Positions 2,212 through 28,503 of a DNA stretch of 34,998 nt are shown in pieces. The translations under genes and the position numbers were made by a program. The DNA is taken from positions 1-34,998 of the forward strand of contig JAJYLG010000028.1 in the NCBI GenBank assembly GCA_021787985.1. The letters run 5' to 3'. The notes beneath the pieces are model-generated. The model saw nothing but the letters and a program-made list of their open reading frames with translations. It did not search any database and was not told where the DNA came from. This stretch comes from Chloroflexota bacterium. GTDB taxonomy: Bacteria > Chloroflexota > Dehalococcoidia > DSGV01. Numbering within the stretch: the stretch's first letter is position 1; each line of letters opens with the position of its first letter.

Positions 2212-3822
2212 TCACCCTCCGTCCACGCTCAGCGGCAGCTCCACGAACAAGGTGGTGCCGGCGCCTTCCACACTCTCCCAGCGAGCGTTCCCCCCCAGCA
2301 GCCGGGCGCGCTCGATGATGCCTGCCACCCCGTAGTGGCCGGCTGCCAGCAGTCGGGCCGGGTCGACCGTCGGCATACCGACCCCGTCGTCCGTGACCAT
2401 CAGGTGCGCCCAGCCGCCTTCCACCGAGAGGGAGATGCGGACCGCCTGCGCCCCCGCGTGCTTCTGCACGTTGGTCAGCGCCTCCTGTGCGATGCGGTAC
2501 AGTGTCACCTCCAGCGGGCTCGGCAGCCGCCCCTCGACGCAGGCATCGACGCGCACGTCGGGCCCGCTCGACGCCCGCAAGGCGGAGGCCTGGTCCTCCA
2601 GCGCCGCGGCCAGCCCTCGTTCGTCCAGCGCTGGCGGGCGCAGTCGCTGCATCATCGCCCGCAGGTCCGTGACCGTCTGCGTGACGCCGAGCTCGACCGT
2701 CTCTATCGCCGCGGTCGCCTCGTTCTGCCGGCCCAGCTCCAGCAGACGGCTCGACCGGGCCGCCTCGAGCCCAACGCGCGCCAAGGCCTGCACCGGACCG
2801 TCGTGCAGGTCGGCCGCCATGCGGTGCCGTTCGTCCTCTTGAGCGCGCACCACCCGCTCGTACAGCAGCCCCCGCGCGATGTCGCGCTCGCGGACGAGGG
2901 CAGCCAGGCGGTACGTCTCGCGCGCGGTGAGGAGCATGCGCAACGCCAGCACCACCAGCAACAACGCGCCGGCGAACGCCAGCACCATCCGTCCGGCCGT
3001 GTCGAGGCGCGAGTCGAAGGCGAGGAAGGCGAGAACGGCAAAGGCGGCGCCGTGCAAGCTCAGGAAACGGACGACGTCGCCCACGCCGGCGATGGCGTTA
3101 CGCCCGCGGCCAAACCGTAGCCCAGAGGTGACGACCAGCGCGCCGATCGCCGCCGCAAGCGCGGCCAGCGGCCATATGGCGCGGCCTGCCGTCGCCGGGC
3201 TGATGCGCGCCGACTGCGCGCAGACCGCCCAGCCAGCGATCCACATCGCCGTCCACTGCCGCGACCAGCGTGGCGCCGCCGCGACGGACCGGTACGTTGC
3301 CACGGCAAATGCCAGCAGCTCGCCCGTGAGCACCACGACCAGCAGCGCACGTTGCCGCTGCCCGCCGCCGCCCCAAGCCGGCGCGAACGCCAGGGCGGCC
3401 ACCGCCGCCGCGACGGCCACGACGATCACCGTCCAGTCGAGGAATCGCACGGCCGAGGGGCGCAGCTCGTGGCGGCGCGTGTCGGATAGCGCGCCCAGGG
3501 CGATTCCCAGCGCGCCAACCATCCAGAGCAGGTCGGCCAGGCCAAGCCGCGCCGACGCGAACTCGCTCGCCCACGCGAAGCTGGCAGCGCCAAAGCCGCT
3601 GGAGACCAGCGTGACCGTTGCCGTGGCATGGCCGCGCAGACCGCGGACCACGCCGACGACAGCCGCGGCACCCCAGACGCCGAACGCCAGCCAGCGAGCC
3701 GGGACACCGGGCAGCGCGAGCCCTGCAAGGAGCCCGGCCGCGCCGAGTCCCGCCAGGCTCACCGCCACCGTGGTGAGCTGCCGCGAGCCGACGCGGCGGG
3801 CCGTGACCAGCTCCGGCGTCAC
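2212..3822 (-). CDS. Membrane sensor histidine kinase, NarX/DesK (HisKA_3) type
   Basis: 536 residues. The first 300 are a multi-pass membrane region with about eight to ten hydrophobic segments and no recognisable periplasmic ligand domain. A helical linker leads to a HisKA_3 dimerisation/phosphoacceptor block, DERHRMAADLHDGPVQALA, with the predicted phospho-His at about 340. The HATPase_c domain follows, with the N-box EALTNVQKHA and the G-box VTDDGVGMP, and ends in ELPLSVDGG. The start is GTG at 3822, with GAGGAG about 7 nt upstream. Kinases of this family normally pair with NarL/FixJ-type regulators carrying HTH output; here the adjacent partner is an HD-GYP protein. The signal is unknown, and the many-helix N-terminus suggests a membrane or lipophilic cue (inference). 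Confidence 0.93.
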   Translation of the reverse strand: MTPELVTARRVGSRQLTTVAVSLAGLGAAGLLAGLALPGVPARWLAFGVWGAAAVVGVVRGLRGHATATVTLVSSGFGAASFAWASEFASARLGLADLLWMVGALGIALGALSDTRRHELRPSAVRFLDWTVIVVAVAAAVAALAFAPAWGGGGQRQRALLVVVLTGELLAFAVATYRSVAAAPRWSRQWTAMWIAGWAVCAQSARISPATAGRAIWPLAALAAAIGALVVTSGLRFGRGRNAIAGVGDVVRFLSLHGAAFAVLAFLAFDSRLDTAGRMVLAFAGALLLVVLALRMLLTARETYRLAALVRERDIARGLLYERVVRAQEDERHRMAADLHDGPVQALARVGLEAARSSRLLELGRQNEATAAIETVELGVTQTVTDLRAMMQRLRPPALDERGLAAALEDQASALRASSGPDVRVDACVEGRLPSPLEVTLYRIAQEALTNVQKHAGAQAVRISLSVEGGWAHLMVTDDGVGMPTVDPARLLAAGHYGVAGIIERARLLGGNARWESVEGAGTTLFVELPLSVDGG

Positions 3823-20222: not shown

Positions 20223-21107
20223 CTATTGGCCGTTCTCCTGCGCGCGAGCCTGGCCGCCGCCGAACGTGCTGAATCCGCCAAAGCCCCCAAAGCCGGGCCC
20301 TTGGTGGGCGGACGAGGTGGCGCCGCTCGTGCTTCGCAGGCTCACCTCCACCTGGCGCCGCTGCCCGCCGCGCTCACACGTGACCTCGATTCGGTCACCC
20401 GGCCGGTGCTCGCGCACGACCGCCCGCAGATCGGCGGCCGACGCCACGTCGCGCCCGCCGGCGCGCACGATCACGTCACCCTGCTTCAGCCCGGCCACGG
20501 CGGCGGCAGAGCCCGGCTCGACGGCGACGATCACCGCCCCGCGGTCGGTCGTGAAGCCGTACTGCTGCTTCAGGGCCGGCGTCACGTCTTCCACCGATAC
20601 CCCAAGAACGGCCTCACCGGTGAGCGCCCGGCCGCGACTCGGCGCCTGCGCCGAAGGCGCCGGCAGCGCGCCGAGGATCGAGGGGTTGCCGAGTTTCACG
20701 CTGACCTCGCGCGTGCGACCTCCGCGCGCGATCAGCACGCGCGCAGTGTCGCCGCGGTGATGGTCGGCGAGCGCGGCGCGAACGTCTTCCACCGAGTTCA
20801 CCACCCGGGAGTCCACCGAGACGACGCGGTCGCCGACTCGGATGCCGGCATGAACGGCCGGCCCGCCGGGCGCGACGGCAACGACGATCACCTGCCCGTC
20901 CCGCTGCTCCACCGCGATGCCGAGCACCGCTCGCTGCGACGAGGGCGCCGGTGTCGTCGCGGCGGTCGGCGCCCTTGCCGGGCCCGCGCTGGACGTGGTC
21001 CCGGTCGTCAGAACCACGATGGTGGCGGTGGTCGCCAGCACGACCAGAACCGCCAGCGCGACGACCAGCCGCGCCGAGCTGCGCGCTCTCAATCGGCCGA
21101 TCGTCAT
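20223..21107 (-). CDS. Membrane-anchored tandem-PDZ protein without protease domain
   Basis: 294 residues. An N-terminal transmembrane segment (about 13-36) is followed by a Thr/Ala/Pro linker and two PDZ domains (about 60-140 and 165-250) with [29 protein letters not shown] and PGSAAAVAGLKQGDVIVRAG. The arrangement resembles the PDZ pair of HtrA/DegQ proteases, but no trypsin-like catalytic domain is present. The C-terminus is Gly/Phe-rich (GFGGFGGFSTFGGGQ). The start overlaps the kinase stop as ATGA, so the protein is translationally coupled to the two-component pair and probably works with it, for example in envelope sensing or as an adaptor (inference). A frame-disrupted domain follows. 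Confidence 0.85.
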   Translation of the reverse strand: MTIGRLRARSSARLVVALAVLVVLATTATIVVLTTGTTSSAGPARAPTAATTPAPSSQRAVLGIAVEQRDGQVIVVAVAPGGPAVHAGIRVGDRVVSVDSRVVNSVEDVRAALADHHRGDTARVLIARGGRTREVSVKLGNPSILGALPAPSAQAPSRGRALTGEAVLGVSVEDVTPALKQQYGFTTDRGAVIVAVEPGSAAAVAGLKQGDVIVRAGGRDVASAADLRAVVREHRPGDRIEVTCERGGQRRQVEVSLRSTSGATSSAHQGPGFGGFGGFSTFGGGQARAQENGQ

Positions 21108-22609
21108 CGAGGTCCCTTGCCTTTGGCTGCCGCCCGATCGGACGGCGCCGATGGGCCGCGCGTGGGCAGCACGACGCGAAACGTCGTGCCGGTGTCGCGA
21201 TCGCTCTCCACGCGGATGGTGCCCTCGTGCGCGGCGACGACCTCGCGCGCGATCGCGAGGCCAAGGCCGCCCGCGCGGCCGTTGCGGCTGCGCGCCCGGT
21301 CCACCTGGTAGAAACGCTCGAAGATCCGCTCACGGTCCTCGGGCGCGATGTACGAGCCCGTGTTGTGCACAGCGAATTCGGCAGTCTGCGGCTCGGCCTG
21401 GAGGGCACGCAATGTGACGACGCCTCCCGCCTGAGCATGCCGGATGGCATTCTGCACCAGGTTCGCCGCCACCTGCTCCAAGCGTCGCGCGTCGCCGCGC
21501 ACCGCCGGACCGGCCGCCGGGGCGTCCACGCGCACCGTCCTGCCGCCCCTCGCAACCATAGGCGACAACCGCTCGACCGTGCCGCGTAGCAGCTCGCCCA
21601 GGTCCACGCGGGTGAGGTCGAGCGGCGCCATGCCGGCCTCGATGCGCGAGAGGTCGAGCAGGTCCTCGATCAGCGTGCGCATGCGGTCTGCTTCCTCATT
21701 GATGGCGCGCGTCGCGATAGAGCGGTCGGCGTCCGTGCGCGCGGCGCCCTCGGAAAGGGCCTGACTGAAGCCCTGGATCGACGTGAGCGGCGTCTTCAGC
21801 TCGTGCGCCACGTTCGCCAGCAGGTCCCGCATGGAGCGGTGCGAGCGGCTAACCTCGCGCGCCATGTGGTTGAACGCCCGGGACAACCGGCCGACCTCGT
21901 CATGCCCGCTCTCGGGGATGCGCTGGTCGTACTCGCCGCGGGCCATGGCCGCGCTGGCGCGCGTCATGCGAGCGAGCGGCCGGGTCACCGAGCGGGCGAC
22001 CACCGCGGCGACGGCTACGCTCAGCACCGCGGCGACGAGAGCGGCGAGGGCCAGTCGCGGGGCGAGGGCCAGCCAGGCGCCCTGGATGGTGCCGGCCGGC
22101 ACGGCCACGACGACGCCGTACTGTTGCGGGACGAGCTCCGGGGCGGTCACCACCGTGCTCGAGCTGCCCGGCACGCCGAAGACCACGTACGTGCGGCCGC
22201 TCTCCACCCAGGTGGTATAGATGAAGCCGCCCTCCGGCTGATGCTCCCGGCGCTCGTGCAGCCACTTGGCCAGGTCCTGGCCGGACGCGTCCTCCAACTG
22301 CTTCCCCTGTAGCGTGTGGGAGCTGTCGGCCACGACGCGCATCGACTGGTCGACCAGAATGGTGCGCACGCCGAACTCCTGCGCGCGCCTGGACAGGAAG
22401 CTGGCGATGTAGTCGGCGCTGTAGCCTGCCCTGGCGAGCTGCTGCACCTGGTACTGCAGCGGCTGAACGATCAGGCCAACGCGCTCGCGCGCCGCCGCGA
22501 CCTCGCGATCGCGCAGCAGGTAGAGGAAGCCGGCACTGGCGGCCACGAGGCTGACGAACGTGACAACGCCGAACGCGACGATGAGCTTAGCTGTCAGGCT
22601 GCGGAACAT
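21104..22609 (-). CDS. Transmembrane sensor histidine kinase (HAMP, HisKA, HATPase_c)
   Basis: 501 residues from the ATG at 22609, with GGAGG 5 nt upstream; the frame is open further upstream inside the regulator gene. Topology: TM1 (about 8-30), an extracytoplasmic sensor region of about 150 residues, TM2 (LAALVAAVLSVAVAAVVA), HAMP, then HisKA with LLANVAHELKTPLTSIQG (phospho-His about 269). HATPase_c has the N-box QVAANLVQNAIRHA and the ending GLGLAIAREVVAAHEGTI. The G1 box reads VHNTGSYI, lacking the usual Asp of DxGxGI. It overlaps the response regulator by 23 nt and the PDZ gene by 4 nt. The membrane signal is unknown. Confidence 0.93.
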   Translation of the reverse strand: MFRSLTAKLIVAFGVVTFVSLVAASAGFLYLLRDREVAAARERVGLIVQPLQYQVQQLARAGYSADYIASFLSRRAQEFGVRTILVDQSMRVVADSSHTLQGKQLEDASGQDLAKWLHERREHQPEGGFIYTTWVESGRTYVVFGVPGSSSTVVTAPELVPQQYGVVVAVPAGTIQGAWLALAPRLALAALVAAVLSVAVAAVVARSVTRPLARMTRASAAMARGEYDQRIPESGHDEVGRLSRAFNHMAREVSRSHRSMRDLLANVAHELKTPLTSIQGFSQALSEGAARTDADRSIATRAINEEADRMRTLIEDLLDLSRIEAGMAPLDLTRVDLGELLRGTVERLSPMVARGGRTVRVDAPAAGPAVRGDARRLEQVAANLVQNAIRHAQAGGVVTLRALQAEPQTAEFAVHNTGSYIAPEDRERIFERFYQVDRARSRNGRAGGLGLAIAREVVAAHEGTIRVESDRDTGTTFRVVLPTRGPSAPSDRAAAKGKGPR

Positions 22610-23285
22610 CGTCCTCCGCCACCAGTTTGTAGCCGAAGCCCCACACGGTCTGAATGCGCGCCGTCGCCGCGGAAAGCTTGTCACGCAGCCAAGCGATGTG
22701 CACGTCCAGGGTGCGGCCGTCGCCGAAGTAGTCGGCGCCCCAAACCTGGTTGAGCAGCTCGTCGCGCTTCATGGCGACTCCGGTGTGAGAGGCGAGCGCC
22801 ACGAGCAGGTCGAACTCCTTGGCACGCAACGGCACCGCCCTGCTGCCTACCGCCACCGTGCGGCCCAGCACATCGATGCGCAGATTACCGACATCGAGGA
22901 TGCGGGTCGGGCGGCGGCCGGTCTCGTACCGGCGCAGGACCGCTTTGACGCGCGCCACCAGCTCGCGCGGGTTGAACGGCTTGGTTACGTAGTCGTCGGC
23001 GCCCAGCTCGAGGCCGACGATGCGGTCCACATCCTCGCTGCGGGCCGTAAGCATGATGACCGGGATGTCGGACTCCCGGCGGAGCTGACGGCAGACCTCG
23101 AGCCCGTCGATCTCGGGCATCATGATGTCGAGCACCACGAGATCGGGCCGAAGCGCGCGCGCGCGCTCCAGCGCCTCCCGCCCGTCGTAAGCTGCTTCGA
23201 CGCGGAATCCCTCGTTGTTCAGGTACATACGAGCGAGCTCGACAATGTTGCGCTCGTCATCGACAACCAGCACGGTGGCACTCAC
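22587..23285 (-). CDS. OmpR/PhoB-type response regulator
   Basis: 232 residues from the GTG at 23285 (VSATVLVVDDERN); a longer frame to 23324 is open but adds non-family residues. The REC domain (1-120) has the acidic pair DDE, phospho-acceptor Asp in LVVLDIMMPEIDG, and the conserved Thr and Lys (MLTARS, DDYVTKPF). The winged-helix DNA-binding domain (about 130-225) includes LRAKEFDLLVALASHTG and VDVHIAWLRDK-type recognition-helix residues, ending WGFGYKLV. Length and layout are normal. It pairs with the overlapping kinase gene. A structured leader with three inverted repeats lies just upstream. Confidence 0.94.
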   Translation of the reverse strand: MSATVLVVDDERNIVELARMYLNNEGFRVEAAYDGREALERARALRPDLVVLDIMMPEIDGLEVCRQLRRESDIPVIMLTARSEDVDRIVGLELGADDYVTKPFNPRELVARVKAVLRRYETGRRPTRILDVGNLRIDVLGRTVAVGSRAVPLRAKEFDLLVALASHTGVAMKRDELLNQVWGADYFGDGRTLDVHIAWLRDKLSAATARIQTVWGFGYKLVAEDDVPQPDS

Positions 23286-23312
23286 GCGACACCCCAGCCC
23301 TCTGGCATGACA

Positions 23313-23433
23313 ACGGCGAGGCACGGGCGCCAGCCCATACCTCGCCGTGTTGATTTCCTGCCCCCGCGGAAGGCGCCCCGTTCCTTTGCCATCATCCGCG
23401 GGGGAGGGTCACGTGCCAGTAGTCCTGGCACGT
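23313..23433 (-). ncRNA. Candidate structured leader: three successive inverted repeats
   Basis: Three perfect inverted repeats lie in the spacer before the regulator gene. They are ACGGCGAGG/CCTCGCCGT (23313-23321 / 23340-23348), CCCCCGCGGA/TCCGCGGGGG (23361-23370 / 23395-23404) and ACGTGCCAG/CTGGCACGT (23411-23419 / 23425-23433). On the minus strand the first encloses GGGC-TGGC-GCCC, giving a 9-bp stem, a 3x3 internal loop, a 4-bp stem and a tetraloop. It ends 28 nt before the GTG at 23285. No known riboswitch class was recognised. The 9-bp outer repeat could instead be a protein-binding operator. Confidence 0.4.
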
Positions 23434-23496
23434 TCAGTTTCGTTCCACACGGCGCAGGAATGGGCTAACGGGTGCCCATCCTCTTCTTAAGATAGT

Positions 23497-23537
23497 GCAA
23501 AATCGCCGCGGGCCGCGTCCCGAACGCGGCCCGCGGC
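23497..23537 (-). terminator. Intrinsic terminator of the CapD-like gene
   Basis: A perfect 14-bp stem (23505-23518 with 23524-23537) with a 5-nt loop is followed on the minus strand by GATTTTGC. It lies about 65 nt after the stop of the nucleotide-sugar dehydratase gene and separates that unit from the two-component operon. Confidence 0.85.
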
Positions 23538-23603: not shown

Positions 23604-25490
23604 TCAGACGGCGGCATCGCCCTCGCGACGGTCGACACGGGCGCCCGCCCTGGGCTCGGGTTCGCCACCTGCGCCCGGCTCCAGCCGCGCCAGTGCGTGC
23701 AGCGCGCGCGCGAGCCGCGCCGGGTCGTGCTGCATCCTGGCGAGGCGCTCCACCTCGGCCACGAGCACACGCGCGTCGGCAGCGCGCTCAGTCGCCATGA
23801 GCAGCACCTTCGGATGCGAGGTGGGACGCACTTCCTCGTGGTCCGCCACCAGCACCTCGCGTAGCTTCTCGCCGGGGCGCAGCCCGGTGTAGACGATCGG
23901 GATGTCCTCACCCGGGCGCAGCCCCTTGAGGCGGATCATGCGCTCCGCCAGGTCCGCGATCCGCACCTCCTCGCCCATGTCCAACATGAAAGTCTCCCCC
24001 TGCCTCGCGAAGGCCGCCGCCTGGATGACGAGGCTCACCGCCTCGGGGATCGTCAGGAAATAGCGCATCATCTCCGGGTGCGTCAAGGTCACCGGGCCTC
24101 CGCTGGCGATCTGCCGCCAGAACGTGGGGACAACGCTCCCCCGGCTGCCGATCACGTTGCCGAAGCGCACGGTGCAAAAGACCGTTTCCGAGCGTTCGGC
24201 CATCGCCTGTACGAGCAGCTCGCCCACGCGCTTGGTCGCCCCGTAGACACTCGCGGGGTGGACCGACTTGTCCGTGCTGATGAACACCAGCTTACGCGCG
24301 CCGTACAGGTCGGCCGCCTGGCAGACGTTCAGCGTGCCGACCACGTTGGCGCGGAACGCCTCGTCCGGGTGCAGCTCCATCAGGTCGACGTGCTTGTACG
24401 CCCCGGCGTGGAACACCAGGTCGGGCCGCGCCTGGCTGAAGACCTGCGCCGTCTTGGCGCGTTCGGCGACGCTCCCGATCCAGAGCTTGATGTCGCACTC
24501 GCCTCGCGCCGGCGCCAGCTCGACCTGCAGGTCGTGCAGGCCCGACTCGTTGATGTCCAGCAGGTGCAGCGCCGCCGGGCCGAGCGCCAGCGCCTGGCGC
24601 GCGAGCTCCGTGCCGACGCTGCCGGCAGCGCCCGTGATCAGCACCGACGCGTTGTGAACCACCGCCGCGCAGCCGGCGAAGTCGATCTCGACCGGCTCCC
24701 GCCCGAGCAGGTCCTCGACCGTCAGCTCGCGCAACTGCCCGACGCTCAGGTTGTCGCGGACGACCTCGGGCAGGCCGGGCACCATTCGGACCGGCACGTT
24801 CGCCGCCTCTGCCAGCGCGGCGATCTCGCGCACCTTCGCCCCGCTCACGCTCGGCAGCGCGATCGCCACCAGGTCGGCCTCGACGCGGCGGGCGATACGG
24901 GGCAGGTCGGCGATCGCGCCCAGCACCGGCACGCCGTGGATGCGGCTGCCGCGCTTGCCCGTGTCGTCGTCGACGAATCCGACCGGCCTCAGTCGCCAGA
25001 CCCGGTGCTGCTGGAACTCACGCGCCACGAACTGCCCCGTGGCGCCCGCGCCCGCGATCAATACCCGCTGGACCCCGTCCACATCTCGCAGCGTCGGGCG
25101 GTGAGCGAGCAGCCGCGGCGACAGCTTCACGAATGACATCGCGAGAAAGCTCAGTGGTCCGGAGACGAGCGTAACCGAGAGCGGAATGTCGCGCGTTCGC
25201 GGCAGCACGTTGATTCCTGTGACCACGATCGTCGCCACCATCACGGCGGCGCCCAGGCGCACCGCCTCGATCACGCTGGCGTAGCGCCAGGCGATACGGT
25301 AAATGCCAAGCAGCCAGTTCGCCAGGATGAAAGCGAGCGCGATGCCCGGATAGACTCGAGCGAAGGCGTGCCAACTCTGCGTCGGGACATGGCCGTCGAA
25401 CCGAAAGAGCAGGGCAGCGACGTAGGTAGCCGCAACGATCGCCACATCCAGCAGCGCGGCGGCGAGGGAGCGGAGCAGCCGCTGTCTCAC
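23604..25490 (-). CDS. CapD/PglF-type membrane nucleotide-sugar 4,6-dehydratase or epimerase
   Basis: 628 residues; GTG at 25490 with AAGGA close upstream. Four N-terminal transmembrane helices (about 10-130) precede a CoA-binding-like Rossmann domain (VLIAGAGATGQFVAREF) and a second, SDR-type Rossmann domain (ITGAAGSVGTELARQAL, about 283-). Catalytic-region motifs are FISTDKSVHPASVYGATKR (about 402-420) and RPGEKLREVL. Homologues such as WbpM, CapD and PglF convert UDP-GlcNAc to the 4-keto-6-deoxy sugar that aminotransferases use. Many WbpM-type enzymes have Met in the MGATK position; here YGATK keeps the SDR tyrosine. It probably feeds the aminotransferase and sugar-transferase genes at 26633-28503. 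The product sugar is inferred. Confidence 0.9.
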   Translation of the reverse strand: MRQRLLRSLAAALLDVAIVAATYVAALLFRFDGHVPTQSWHAFARVYPGIALAFILANWLLGIYRIAWRYASVIEAVRLGAAVMVATIVVTGINVLPRTRDIPLSVTLVSGPLSFLAMSFVKLSPRLLAHRPTLRDVDGVQRVLIAGAGATGQFVAREFQQHRVWRLRPVGFVDDDTGKRGSRIHGVPVLGAIADLPRIARRVEADLVAIALPSVSGAKVREIAALAEAANVPVRMVPGLPEVVRDNLSVGQLRELTVEDLLGREPVEIDFAGCAAVVHNASVLITGAAGSVGTELARQALALGPAALHLLDINESGLHDLQVELAPARGECDIKLWIGSVAERAKTAQVFSQARPDLVFHAGAYKHVDLMELHPDEAFRANVVGTLNVCQAADLYGARKLVFISTDKSVHPASVYGATKRVGELLVQAMAERSETVFCTVRFGNVIGSRGSVVPTFWRQIASGGPVTLTHPEMMRYFLTIPEAVSLVIQAAAFARQGETFMLDMGEEVRIADLAERMIRLKGLRPGEDIPIVYTGLRPGEKLREVLVADHEEVRPTSHPKVLLMATERAADARVLVAEVERLARMQHDPARLARALHALARLEPGAGGEPEPRAGARVDRREGDAAV

Positions 25491-27343: not shown

Positions 27344-28503
27344 CAGCTCACCTCGCGCACGATGTCGACGACCGCCCGGCACACGCGGTCCACGTCCTGG
27401 TCAGTCATCGAGGGATAGATGGGCAGCGAGACGAGGCCGGCGTACGCCCCCTCCGTCACGGGGAAGTCGCTGGCGCTCCAGCCCCAGCCTTCGCGGTAGT
27501 AGGGGTGCCGGTGCAGCGGGATGAAGTGCACGCTCGTCCCGATGCCGCGCCCGGTGAGCCGCCGAATGAGCTCCGCGCGGTCGATGGCGAGGGCGCCTGG
27601 CAGCAGCCGGACCGGGTACAGGTGCCACACGTGCGAGACCTCGGGACGGGCGGTCGGCAGCCGCAGCGCTTCGACCTCCCGCAGGCGCTCCGAGTATGCC
27701 GCCGCGATGGCGGCACGACGCGCGTTCAGCTCGGGCAGCCGGCGGAGCTGGACGATCCCAAGCGCCGCCTGCAGGTCGGTCATGTTGTACTTGTAGCCCG
27801 GCGCTGTGACCTCGTAGTACCAACTGCCCTCGGCCGAGTAGCGTTTCCAGGCGTCGCGGTCCATCCCATGCAACGCCATCTGCCGCGCGCGCTCGGCGAT
27901 CTCGGCATGGCGCGTGGTGAGCATGCCGCCCTCGCCGGTCGTCAGGTTCTTCGTCGCGTAGAACGAGAACGCGGCCGCGTCGCCAAGCCCACCGACTGGC
28001 CGGCCCCGGTACGCCGCACCGCTGGCGTGCGCGGCGTCCTCGAGGACGCGCACGTCCCGACCCGCCAGGACGCGTTCGATCTCGTCCATGCGACACGGCT
28101 GCCCGCCGTAGTGCACCACCATCAGCGCACGCGTCCGCGAGCTGAGCCGGTGCTCGACGTCTGCCGGACTGATGCAGAGATCGTCGGCGCACACGTCGGC
28201 CAGAACCGGTCGGGCGCCGAGCTGCACGACCACGTTGGCGCACGCGGCAAAGGTGAGCGACGGGAGGATCACCTCGTCTCCCGGGCCGACGCCCATCGCC
28301 TCCAGCGCCAGGTGCAGCGCCGCGGTCGCCGAGCTCAACGCGACGGCGTGCGGCGTCTCGGCCAGCGCCGCCATCCGCGTCTCGAACTCGCCGACCCGCG
28401 GTCCGGTGGTCAGCCAGCCGCTGCGCAACGTCGCGACGACGGCCTCGATCTCCTCCTCCCCCACTGCCGGCCGGTAGAAGGGAAGCGGCGCCTGCTCGCT
28501 CAC
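27343..28503 (-). CDS. DegT/DnrJ/EryC1/StrS-family aminotransferase
   Basis: 386 residues from the GTG at 28503, inside a 4-nt overlap (GTGA) with the methyltransferase stop. PLP-dependent sugar aminotransferase: LRSGWLTTGPRVGEFE, ALSSATAALHLALEAMGVG, LPSLTFAACANVVVQLGARP, VLEDAAHASGA, and the Schiff-base Lys in FSFYATKNLTTGEGGML. GYKYNMTDLQAALGIVQLRR and HPYYREG fit the PglE/PseC/ArnB-like branch that aminates UDP-4-keto sugars. With the CapD-like gene it would make a UDP-4-amino-4,6-dideoxy sugar. No acetyltransferase of the PglD type is in the window. Confidence 0.93.
   Translation of the reverse strand: MSEQAPLPFYRPAVGEEEIEAVVATLRSGWLTTGPRVGEFETRMAALAETPHAVALSSATAALHLALEAMGVGPGDEVILPSLTFAACANVVVQLGARPVLADVCADDLCISPADVEHRLSSRTRALMVVHYGGQPCRMDEIERVLAGRDVRVLEDAAHASGAAYRGRPVGGLGDAAAFSFYATKNLTTGEGGMLTTRHAEIAERARQMALHGMDRDAWKRYSAEGSWYYEVTAPGYKYNMTDLQAALGIVQLRRLPELNARRAAIAAAYSERLREVEALRLPTARPEVSHVWHLYPVRLLPGALAIDRAELIRRLTGRGIGTSVHFIPLHRHPYYREGWGWSASDFPVTEGAYAGLVSLPIYPSMTDQDVDRVCRAVVDIVREVS

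Follow-up and report, generated by a model that had tools for sequence, protein, structure and literature searches.

A Candidate Structured Leader RNA Upstream of a WalRK/MtrAB-like Two-Component Operon in a Chloroflexota Bacterium

Three hairpins that directly precede the gene for an OmpR-type response regulator in a Chloroflexota genome are read here, with moderate confidence, as a lineage-specific structured 5′ leader RNA of a regulator–kinase–PDZ mRNA, transcribed from the promoter of a WalRK/MtrAB-like operon that controls its own expression, and probably acting in cis. The DNA analyzed, referred to throughout as the window, is one whole contig (34,998 nucleotides) of a 3.5-Mb assembly of 189 contigs. 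In three families of relatives within the same class (f2, f33, and f17), the interval between a direct-repeat box and the orthologous regulator gene holds a structured element that covaries. Labels beginning with L, G, and f denote anonymous loci, genomes, and families, respectively, and the coordinates of all features are collected in Table 1.

Table 1. Positions of the Features Discussed in the Text
Feature	Position	Strand	Basis or score
Hairpin 1: 9-bp stem, 5-nt loop	23411..23433 (arms 23411-23419/23425-23433)	minus	z -6.2
Hairpin 2: 10-bp outer stem, inner GGC/GCC, AAGGAACGGG within tip	23361..23404 (arms 23361-23370/23395-23404)	minus	z -1.8 alone
Hairpin 3: 16-bp helix, two U-G pairs, tetraloop	23313..23348 (perfect 9-bp arms 23313-23321/23340-23348)	minus	z -7.1
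Possible -10 element GAAACT (speculative)	23436..23441	minus	by eye
Direct-repeat box, four repeats 11 bp apart: TTTTGCA, CTTAAGA, GATGGGC, GTTAGCC (last two weak)	23459..23502	minus	score 11 of 12 at -216; 1-mismatch match; extent by eye
Inverted repeat over repeats 3 and 4 of the box	23460..23479	minus	inverted-repeat scan
14-bp stem then GATTTTGC, probable terminator of the upstream polysaccharide gene	23505..23537	minus	inverted-repeat scan and reading of the tail
OmpR/PhoB-type response regulator	22587..23285	minus	Response_reg and Trans_reg_C; GTG start 23285, aligned with orthologues
Histidine kinase ORF (true start probably inside the ORF)	21104..22684	minus	HAMP, HisKA, HATPase_c
Two-PDZ protein, PDZ part HtrA-like	20223..21107	minus	domain and NCBIfam profile matches
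Polysaccharide biosynthesis gene, CapD-like, upstream of the regulator	23604..25490	minus	Polysacc_synt_2
f17 RNA copies	L008 1345-1424; L009 1346-1427; four more f17 leaders		f17 model

Gene Neighborhood of the Leader

An earlier note on this DNA had placed the hairpins in the leader of a two-component operon, and the domain content agrees with such an operon, the regulator being followed by a histidine kinase and then by a two-PDZ protein. The polysaccharide gene is likewise found upstream of the regulator in G055. Farther along the operon, one f50 locus (L187) has a PDZ gene as well, whereas a nucleotidyl transferase gene comes next in one f17 locus (L181).

Among NCBIfam models, the regulator scores best with MtrA, YycF (WalR), RpaB, and PhoB, and the kinase with WalK, PnpS, and MtrB; none of these scores reaches its cut-off. 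The operon resembles WalRK in that WalK is the best NCBIfam match of the kinase and an HtrA-like PDZ gene adjoins, and differs from it in that the equivalog cut-offs are unmet (YycF, 228.9 of 340 bits; WalK, 261.1 of 725 bits) and no PAS domain is detected in the kinase. Similarly, it resembles MtrAB, a system of actinobacteria, in that MtrA is the best match of the regulator and the alignment of the kinase with MtrB spans almost the whole profile, but both matches again fall below the curated equivalog cut-offs (233 of 300 bits and 221.5 of 450 bits, respectively), as does the match to PhoB (222.8 of 296.2 bits). We note, in addition, a short ORF (ATG CCA GAG GGC TGG GGT GTC GCG TGA, 23284-23308, minus strand) that overlaps the GTG start of the regulator and could couple translation.

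Three Hairpins Upstream of the Regulator

Perfect inverted repeats of 9, 10, and 9 bp had been described within 121 nt upstream of the regulator, and all three are present at the positions in Table 1, with stem 3 lying 27 nt from the GTG start. That these stems go beyond chance, as had also been claimed, is confirmed by first-order Markov shuffles of the 121-nt segment (n = 5000), in which perfect stems of at least 9 bp with loops of 3–40 nt occurred zero times in 4864 shuffles, once in 136, and never twice; elsewhere in the window, nowhere do more than one such stem fall within 125 nt. An origin by chance in a GC-rich genome, or from a dispersed palindromic repeat, is thus very improbable in our judgment, the first part being opposed by these shuffles and the second by a DNA search of the organism's own genome with the leader, which gave no second hairpin copy at E 0.001 (two lesser matches lie in query bases 7–100, upstream of the hairpins).

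The minus-strand leader folds with a z score of -5.6 over 231 nt and of -6.3 over 148 nt. The plus strand folds almost equally well (z -5.2), and therefore the strand is not decided by folding energy alone. Hairpin 2 is weak when taken by itself, with 10 of 200 shuffles folding as well or better. Stem 3 had been described as a nested form, in which a 9-bp stem, a 3 × 3 internal loop, a 4-bp stem, and a tetraloop follow one another. The hairpin and its tetraloop stand, but the open internal loop does not: the minus strand has UAU opposite GUG at this point, which closes as U-G, A-U, and U-G in RNA of the regulator's strand, so that stem 3 is a continuous 16-bp helix, whereas the outer positions are A-C on the plus strand.

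This pairing bears on whether the hairpins could instead be DNA-level elements, either cruciforms or inverted-repeat operators, as the perfect palindromes, the near-equal folding of the plus strand, and the further inverted repeat that overlaps the direct-repeat box might be taken to indicate. We consider such a role highly unlikely, given that, in RNA of the regulator's strand, both non-Watson–Crick positions of stem 3 form U-G pairs and that G-U exchanges exceed A-C exchanges in the relatives (see below).

Orthologous Leaders

A match to the regulator at E 1e-80 or better was obtained in 77 of the 393 genomes of the class, and upstream regions were read from 74 of these, window included (three f33 genomes were left out). 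The leaders comprise 25 from f2, 16 from f33, six each from f17 and f66, two each from f25, f60, and f50, one each from f8, f27, f22, and the window, and 11 others. The relatives found share only the class with the window and none belongs to its order; the order of the closest genome holds two genomes only.

Across the 73 orthologue leaders, the mean folding z score is -1.69, compared to -0.61 for 93 control leaders (p 3e-6), which is a modest excess, and values below -3 occur in 17 of the 73 and in 7 of the 93, respectively. The overall folding excess is small or absent in most f2 leaders, and by eye no comparable element was found in f60, f27, and several of the 11 others. Neither a single alignment across families nor one of 24 f2 leaders at once gave a usable structure, and alignments were instead made family by family.

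Covarying RNAs in Three Families

Covariation analysis of homologous leaders, which the earlier note had named as a check, shows that pairing is conserved in the f2, f33, and f17 relatives. The f2 model rests on 14 of 25 leaders, those that could be aligned well, and the f33 model on 15 of 16, with the left-out leader, L017, found by the finished model at 78 bits. In the model-fitted f2 alignment (24 sequences), both partners have changed in 17 of 25 pairs, and pairing is found in 93.3% of cells, compared to 79.7% in shuffles; in the unfitted alignment (14 sequences), the corresponding values are 10 of 25 pairs, and 91.7% compared to 84.4% of cells. Changes on both sides are seen in 12 of 24 pairs for f33 (15 sequences) and in 6 of 21 pairs for f17 (six sequences). 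The covariation score is greater than that of 500/500 shuffles in all four alignments, with slid controls far lower, but the count of further pair types is reached by 108/500 shuffles for the unfitted f2 alignment and by 37/500 for f17, although these shuffle figures are not probabilities because the sequences are related. Finally, G-U cells outnumber A-C cells by 43:10 (f2 fitted), 23:9 (f2 unfitted), 25:1 (f33), and 10:0 (f17), and this excess favors an RNA on the regulator's strand.

The three elements differ in their makeup. The f2 element has three helices, an invariant TGGTGGGAGCGGTTGCGA, and a run of 18 consecutive invariant positions in the 14 aligned sequences. The f17 RNA is approximately 80 nt long and present in one copy per genome; a stem of 15 bp closes it, and it contains a small hairpin of variable sequence as well as a conserved AGGGTGTGAC...TTGAGGCAGGGAGTGA. 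In the 15 aligned f33 sequences (L016, L149, and others), an invariant CGCATACT stands directly after the covarying hairpin, which is itself preceded by a second hairpin with an invariant ACGGCC stretch; it is possible that the f33 hairpin extends over the -35 region of a promoter farther downstream. We also considered reading the conserved f2 and f17 stretches as small ORFs, which was set aside because length changes in these alignments do not come in threes.

When the 393 genomes were scanned with the models under strict filters, at which weak matches are lost, the f17 model matched in six genomes, the f2 model in 18, and the f33 model in 24, at one place each and each within its own family. 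All 48 of the 48 matched loci hold the regulator gene, 12–211 nt downstream of the RNA and on the same strand. By local search, the f2 model finds 24 of the 25 f2 leaders (missing L145) and the f33 model 16 of 16.

Two further links between families gained no clear support from the f17 model. The f17 model scores 27–35 bits in five of the six f66 leaders, compared to 24–33 bits for f17 elements on the wrong strand, and because f17 elements score alike on the wrong strand, the f66 score reflects mainly the palindromic stem; by eye, a GGAGGCAGGG-like stretch is common to f17 and f66. The f50 score with this model (20.1 bits) lies below that of an off-leader match in L125 (20.8 bits). Individual leaders also have layouts of their own. 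The L121 RNA (f17; 2362-2444, minus strand) has an attenuator-like layout, in which its 3′ arm has an alternative partner, a copy located downstream of the RNA and followed by TTTT. In L010 (G007), the 290 nt ahead of position 1501 include a perfect stem of approximately 25 bp with a 3-nt loop, upstream of the regulator and followed by TATAAT, unlike the other families.

Searches against Rfam 15 gave ten matches to the window leader at E ≤10, all below the gathering threshold, and in the orthologues a single tRNA among 11 loci and a single tRNA among six loci at E ≤1, with the leaders unmatched. In line with the previous statement that the hairpins fit no recognized riboswitch class, no Rfam family matches the leader. 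A 2017 list reportedly contains 224 candidate RNAs, and the comparison here extends to it as far as Rfam holds it. At the gathering threshold, the window as a whole yields only a T-box leader at a distance from the hairpins (RF00230, 6523-6740, plus strand, 93.8 bits against a threshold of 93). Two ORFs that follow it resemble, by eye, acetolactate synthase (7144) and ketol-acid reductoisomerase (9456), respectively; this is an ordinary branched-chain amino acid operon.

Relation of the Window Leader to Its Relatives

The f2, f33, and f17 models (R1–R3) give no match to the window hairpins. One match of the f33 model in the window (28419-28497, plus strand, 26 bits, E 0.0025) lies outside the leader, inside an aminotransferase gene of the other strand, and is probably due to chance. 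A DNA search of the leader in 40 relatives likewise gave no match beyond the window itself, and L006, the regulator of which is 71% identical and as close as that of L007, shows no folding excess (z -0.7) and no leader similarity.

The sole relative that resembles the window leader, and weakly so, is L007, which shares with it TTAGCCCAT in the box and AAGGAACGGG in the tip of hairpin 2, in collinear order. A shared word of at least 10 nt with L007 arises in 351 of 3000 shuffles, and a 10-mer at a similar offset in 77 of 5000; both words together arise in 0 of 5000, in a test set after the words had been seen. The alignment of the two leaders has a z score of 2.9, the best of 300 shuffles being slightly higher. 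We have therefore taken care to group the window hairpins with the RNAs of the relatives by position, box, and folding, and not by proven descent, so that membership in one class is a putative assignment. The previous proposal of an orphan cis-regulatory RNA is supported in part: by f2, f33, and f17, where the element covaries, is single-copy, lies on the regulator's strand, and matches no Rfam family, and in the window itself by position, box, U-G pairs, folding, and the weak likeness to L007.

The absence of a match between the models and the window, together with the very high stability of stems 1 and 3, would also agree with hairpins that are only 5′-end or mRNA-stabilizing stems, with no sensing role and unrelated by descent to the RNAs of the relatives. 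We regard this account as doubtful: the 18 consecutive invariant positions in the 14 f2 sequences exceed the needs of stability, although they belong to the f2 relatives and not to the window.

Direct-Repeat Box and Promoter Signals

TTWRCA-like hexamers 11 bp apart are present in the leaders of eight groups (the window, f25, f17, f66, f60, f50, f2, and f33), with the best hexamer pair of the window box at 23485-23501. The earlier note had mentioned neither this box nor the additional inverted repeat and 14-bp stem listed in Table 1. A box score of 11 or 12 of 12 is reached in 28 of the 59 leaders of these groups, compared to 0.2 expected from shuffles, and a score of at least 11 in 2 of 91 control regulators (0.9 expected); since the consensus was read from the same leaders, the controls and the constant position outweigh the raw score. 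The best sites in f17, f66, f33, and f2 lie mostly at about -160 to -245, with exceptions at, for example, -122, -137, -265, and -21. In the remaining orthologues, which belong to none of these groups, the box is mostly missing (score of at least 11 in 2 of 14). The alternative suggestion that the hairpins form a multi-site operator does not fit them, because OmpR-type regulators bind direct repeats and a box of just this kind lies upstream.

Searched with up to one mismatch, the organism's own genome contains six box sites, compared to seven for a reversed control. The exact pattern occurs twice in G016 (once at the regulator gene; control 0) and once in G050 (at the regulator gene; control 1), and is absent from G000 and G055. 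From these genome-wide counts, no regulon is claimed. The second exact copy in G016, at C7:20463-20479 (L212), lies near ORFs that resemble secreted or surface proteins by eye.

No consensus promoter was found in the window leader, and no terminator-like site on the minus strand between 22400 and 23900. By eye, however weak, a -10-like hexamer lies between the box and the structured RNA, and the order of box, hexamer, and RNA suggests a regulator-activated transcript that starts with the RNA. Farther downstream, 6/6 f17 and 6/6 f66 leaders have a TATA box in the stretch that separates the RNA from the gene (approximately 1.4 expected), so that in these families a second promoter probably bypasses the RNA; downstream of the RNA, such a box is found in 0/25 f2 leaders and 0/1 for the window.

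These signals are central to the main rival of a leader RNA, namely that a separate small RNA is made from the box-controlled promoter and acts in trans, while a promoter of its own, farther downstream, serves the regulator gene. The TATA box in 12/12 f17 and f66 leaders, the invariant CGCATACT between RNA and gene in the 15 aligned f33 sequences, the copy in G084 that lies 211 nt from the gene, and the L121 copy followed by a stem and TTTT all point this way, but the RNA is strictly linked to one gene, the downstream TATA box is absent from 25/25 f2 leaders and from the window, and there is no TTTT between RNA and gene in 17 of 25 f2 and 5 of 6 f17 leaders (the testable ones, L121 not being among them). 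Taking both sides into account, we find a trans-acting small RNA unlikely, and a leader that modulates an autoregulated transcript to be the simplest reading.

Comparison with Known RNAs and Regulatory Systems

No such RNA is named in the titles and abstract openings of the matches listed in our literature search, and the terms searched for do not occur in the available part of PMC8632094. Orphan structured leader RNAs obtained by comparative genomics are presented in the accessible portions of PMC2864571 and PMC11109978. The terms "response regulator" and "two-component" are absent from the available main text of the former, and in the corresponding part of the latter "two-component" appears in a reference only, while a Dehalococcoides motif (rdhA) is described upstream of reductive dehalogenase genes. 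As far as these portions describe them, such RNAs are like ours in being covarying RNAs upstream of one gene family with no ligand assigned, and unlike ours in that the RNAs described here belong to the gene of a two-component regulator that also has a direct-repeat box. With riboswitches, which are defined in addition by a ligand and an expression platform, our RNAs share the leader position and, in the f2 and f17 relatives, conserved and partly unpaired stretches.

The TTWRCA-N5-TTWRCA box resembles the reverse complement of the WalR box, given as TGTWAH-N5-TGTWAH in the available text of PMC9210968 (WalRK being YycFG). According to the same text, wal operons are not autoregulated in Firmicutes, unlike the operon here, which we read as autoregulated.

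Proposed Mechanism and Implications

In the leader RNA that we favor, the regulator would bind its own direct-repeat box and, when bound, would drive a transcript beginning near hairpin 1, the leader of which would then act in cis on the amount of regulator and kinase. Possible routes include the binding of a protein or small molecule, mRNA stability, and translation. Because the leader diverges fast, the fold at this one place differs from family to family.

A structured leader RNA is of a known kind; what appears to be new is that such RNAs differ between families and yet stay at one two-component regulator. More speculatively, and as a tentative proposal that we think has a limited chance of being correct, the two-component operon of this class would carry a second, RNA-based sensor in its leader. 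The sensor would consist of orphan aptamers, different in each family, by which an autoregulated envelope-type regulator is gated and which have been remodeled or replaced between families while position and operator stayed fixed. Structured RNAs ahead of a two-component regulator would give a post-transcriptional layer to a circuit for which phosphorylation and promoter feedback are the usual explanation. The three covarying RNA families, which match nothing in Rfam and are each linked to a single gene, offer concrete targets for probing, and the f17 RNA is a good one in itself; likewise, how the fold came to change while its position stayed the same is an evolutionary question that is now testable.
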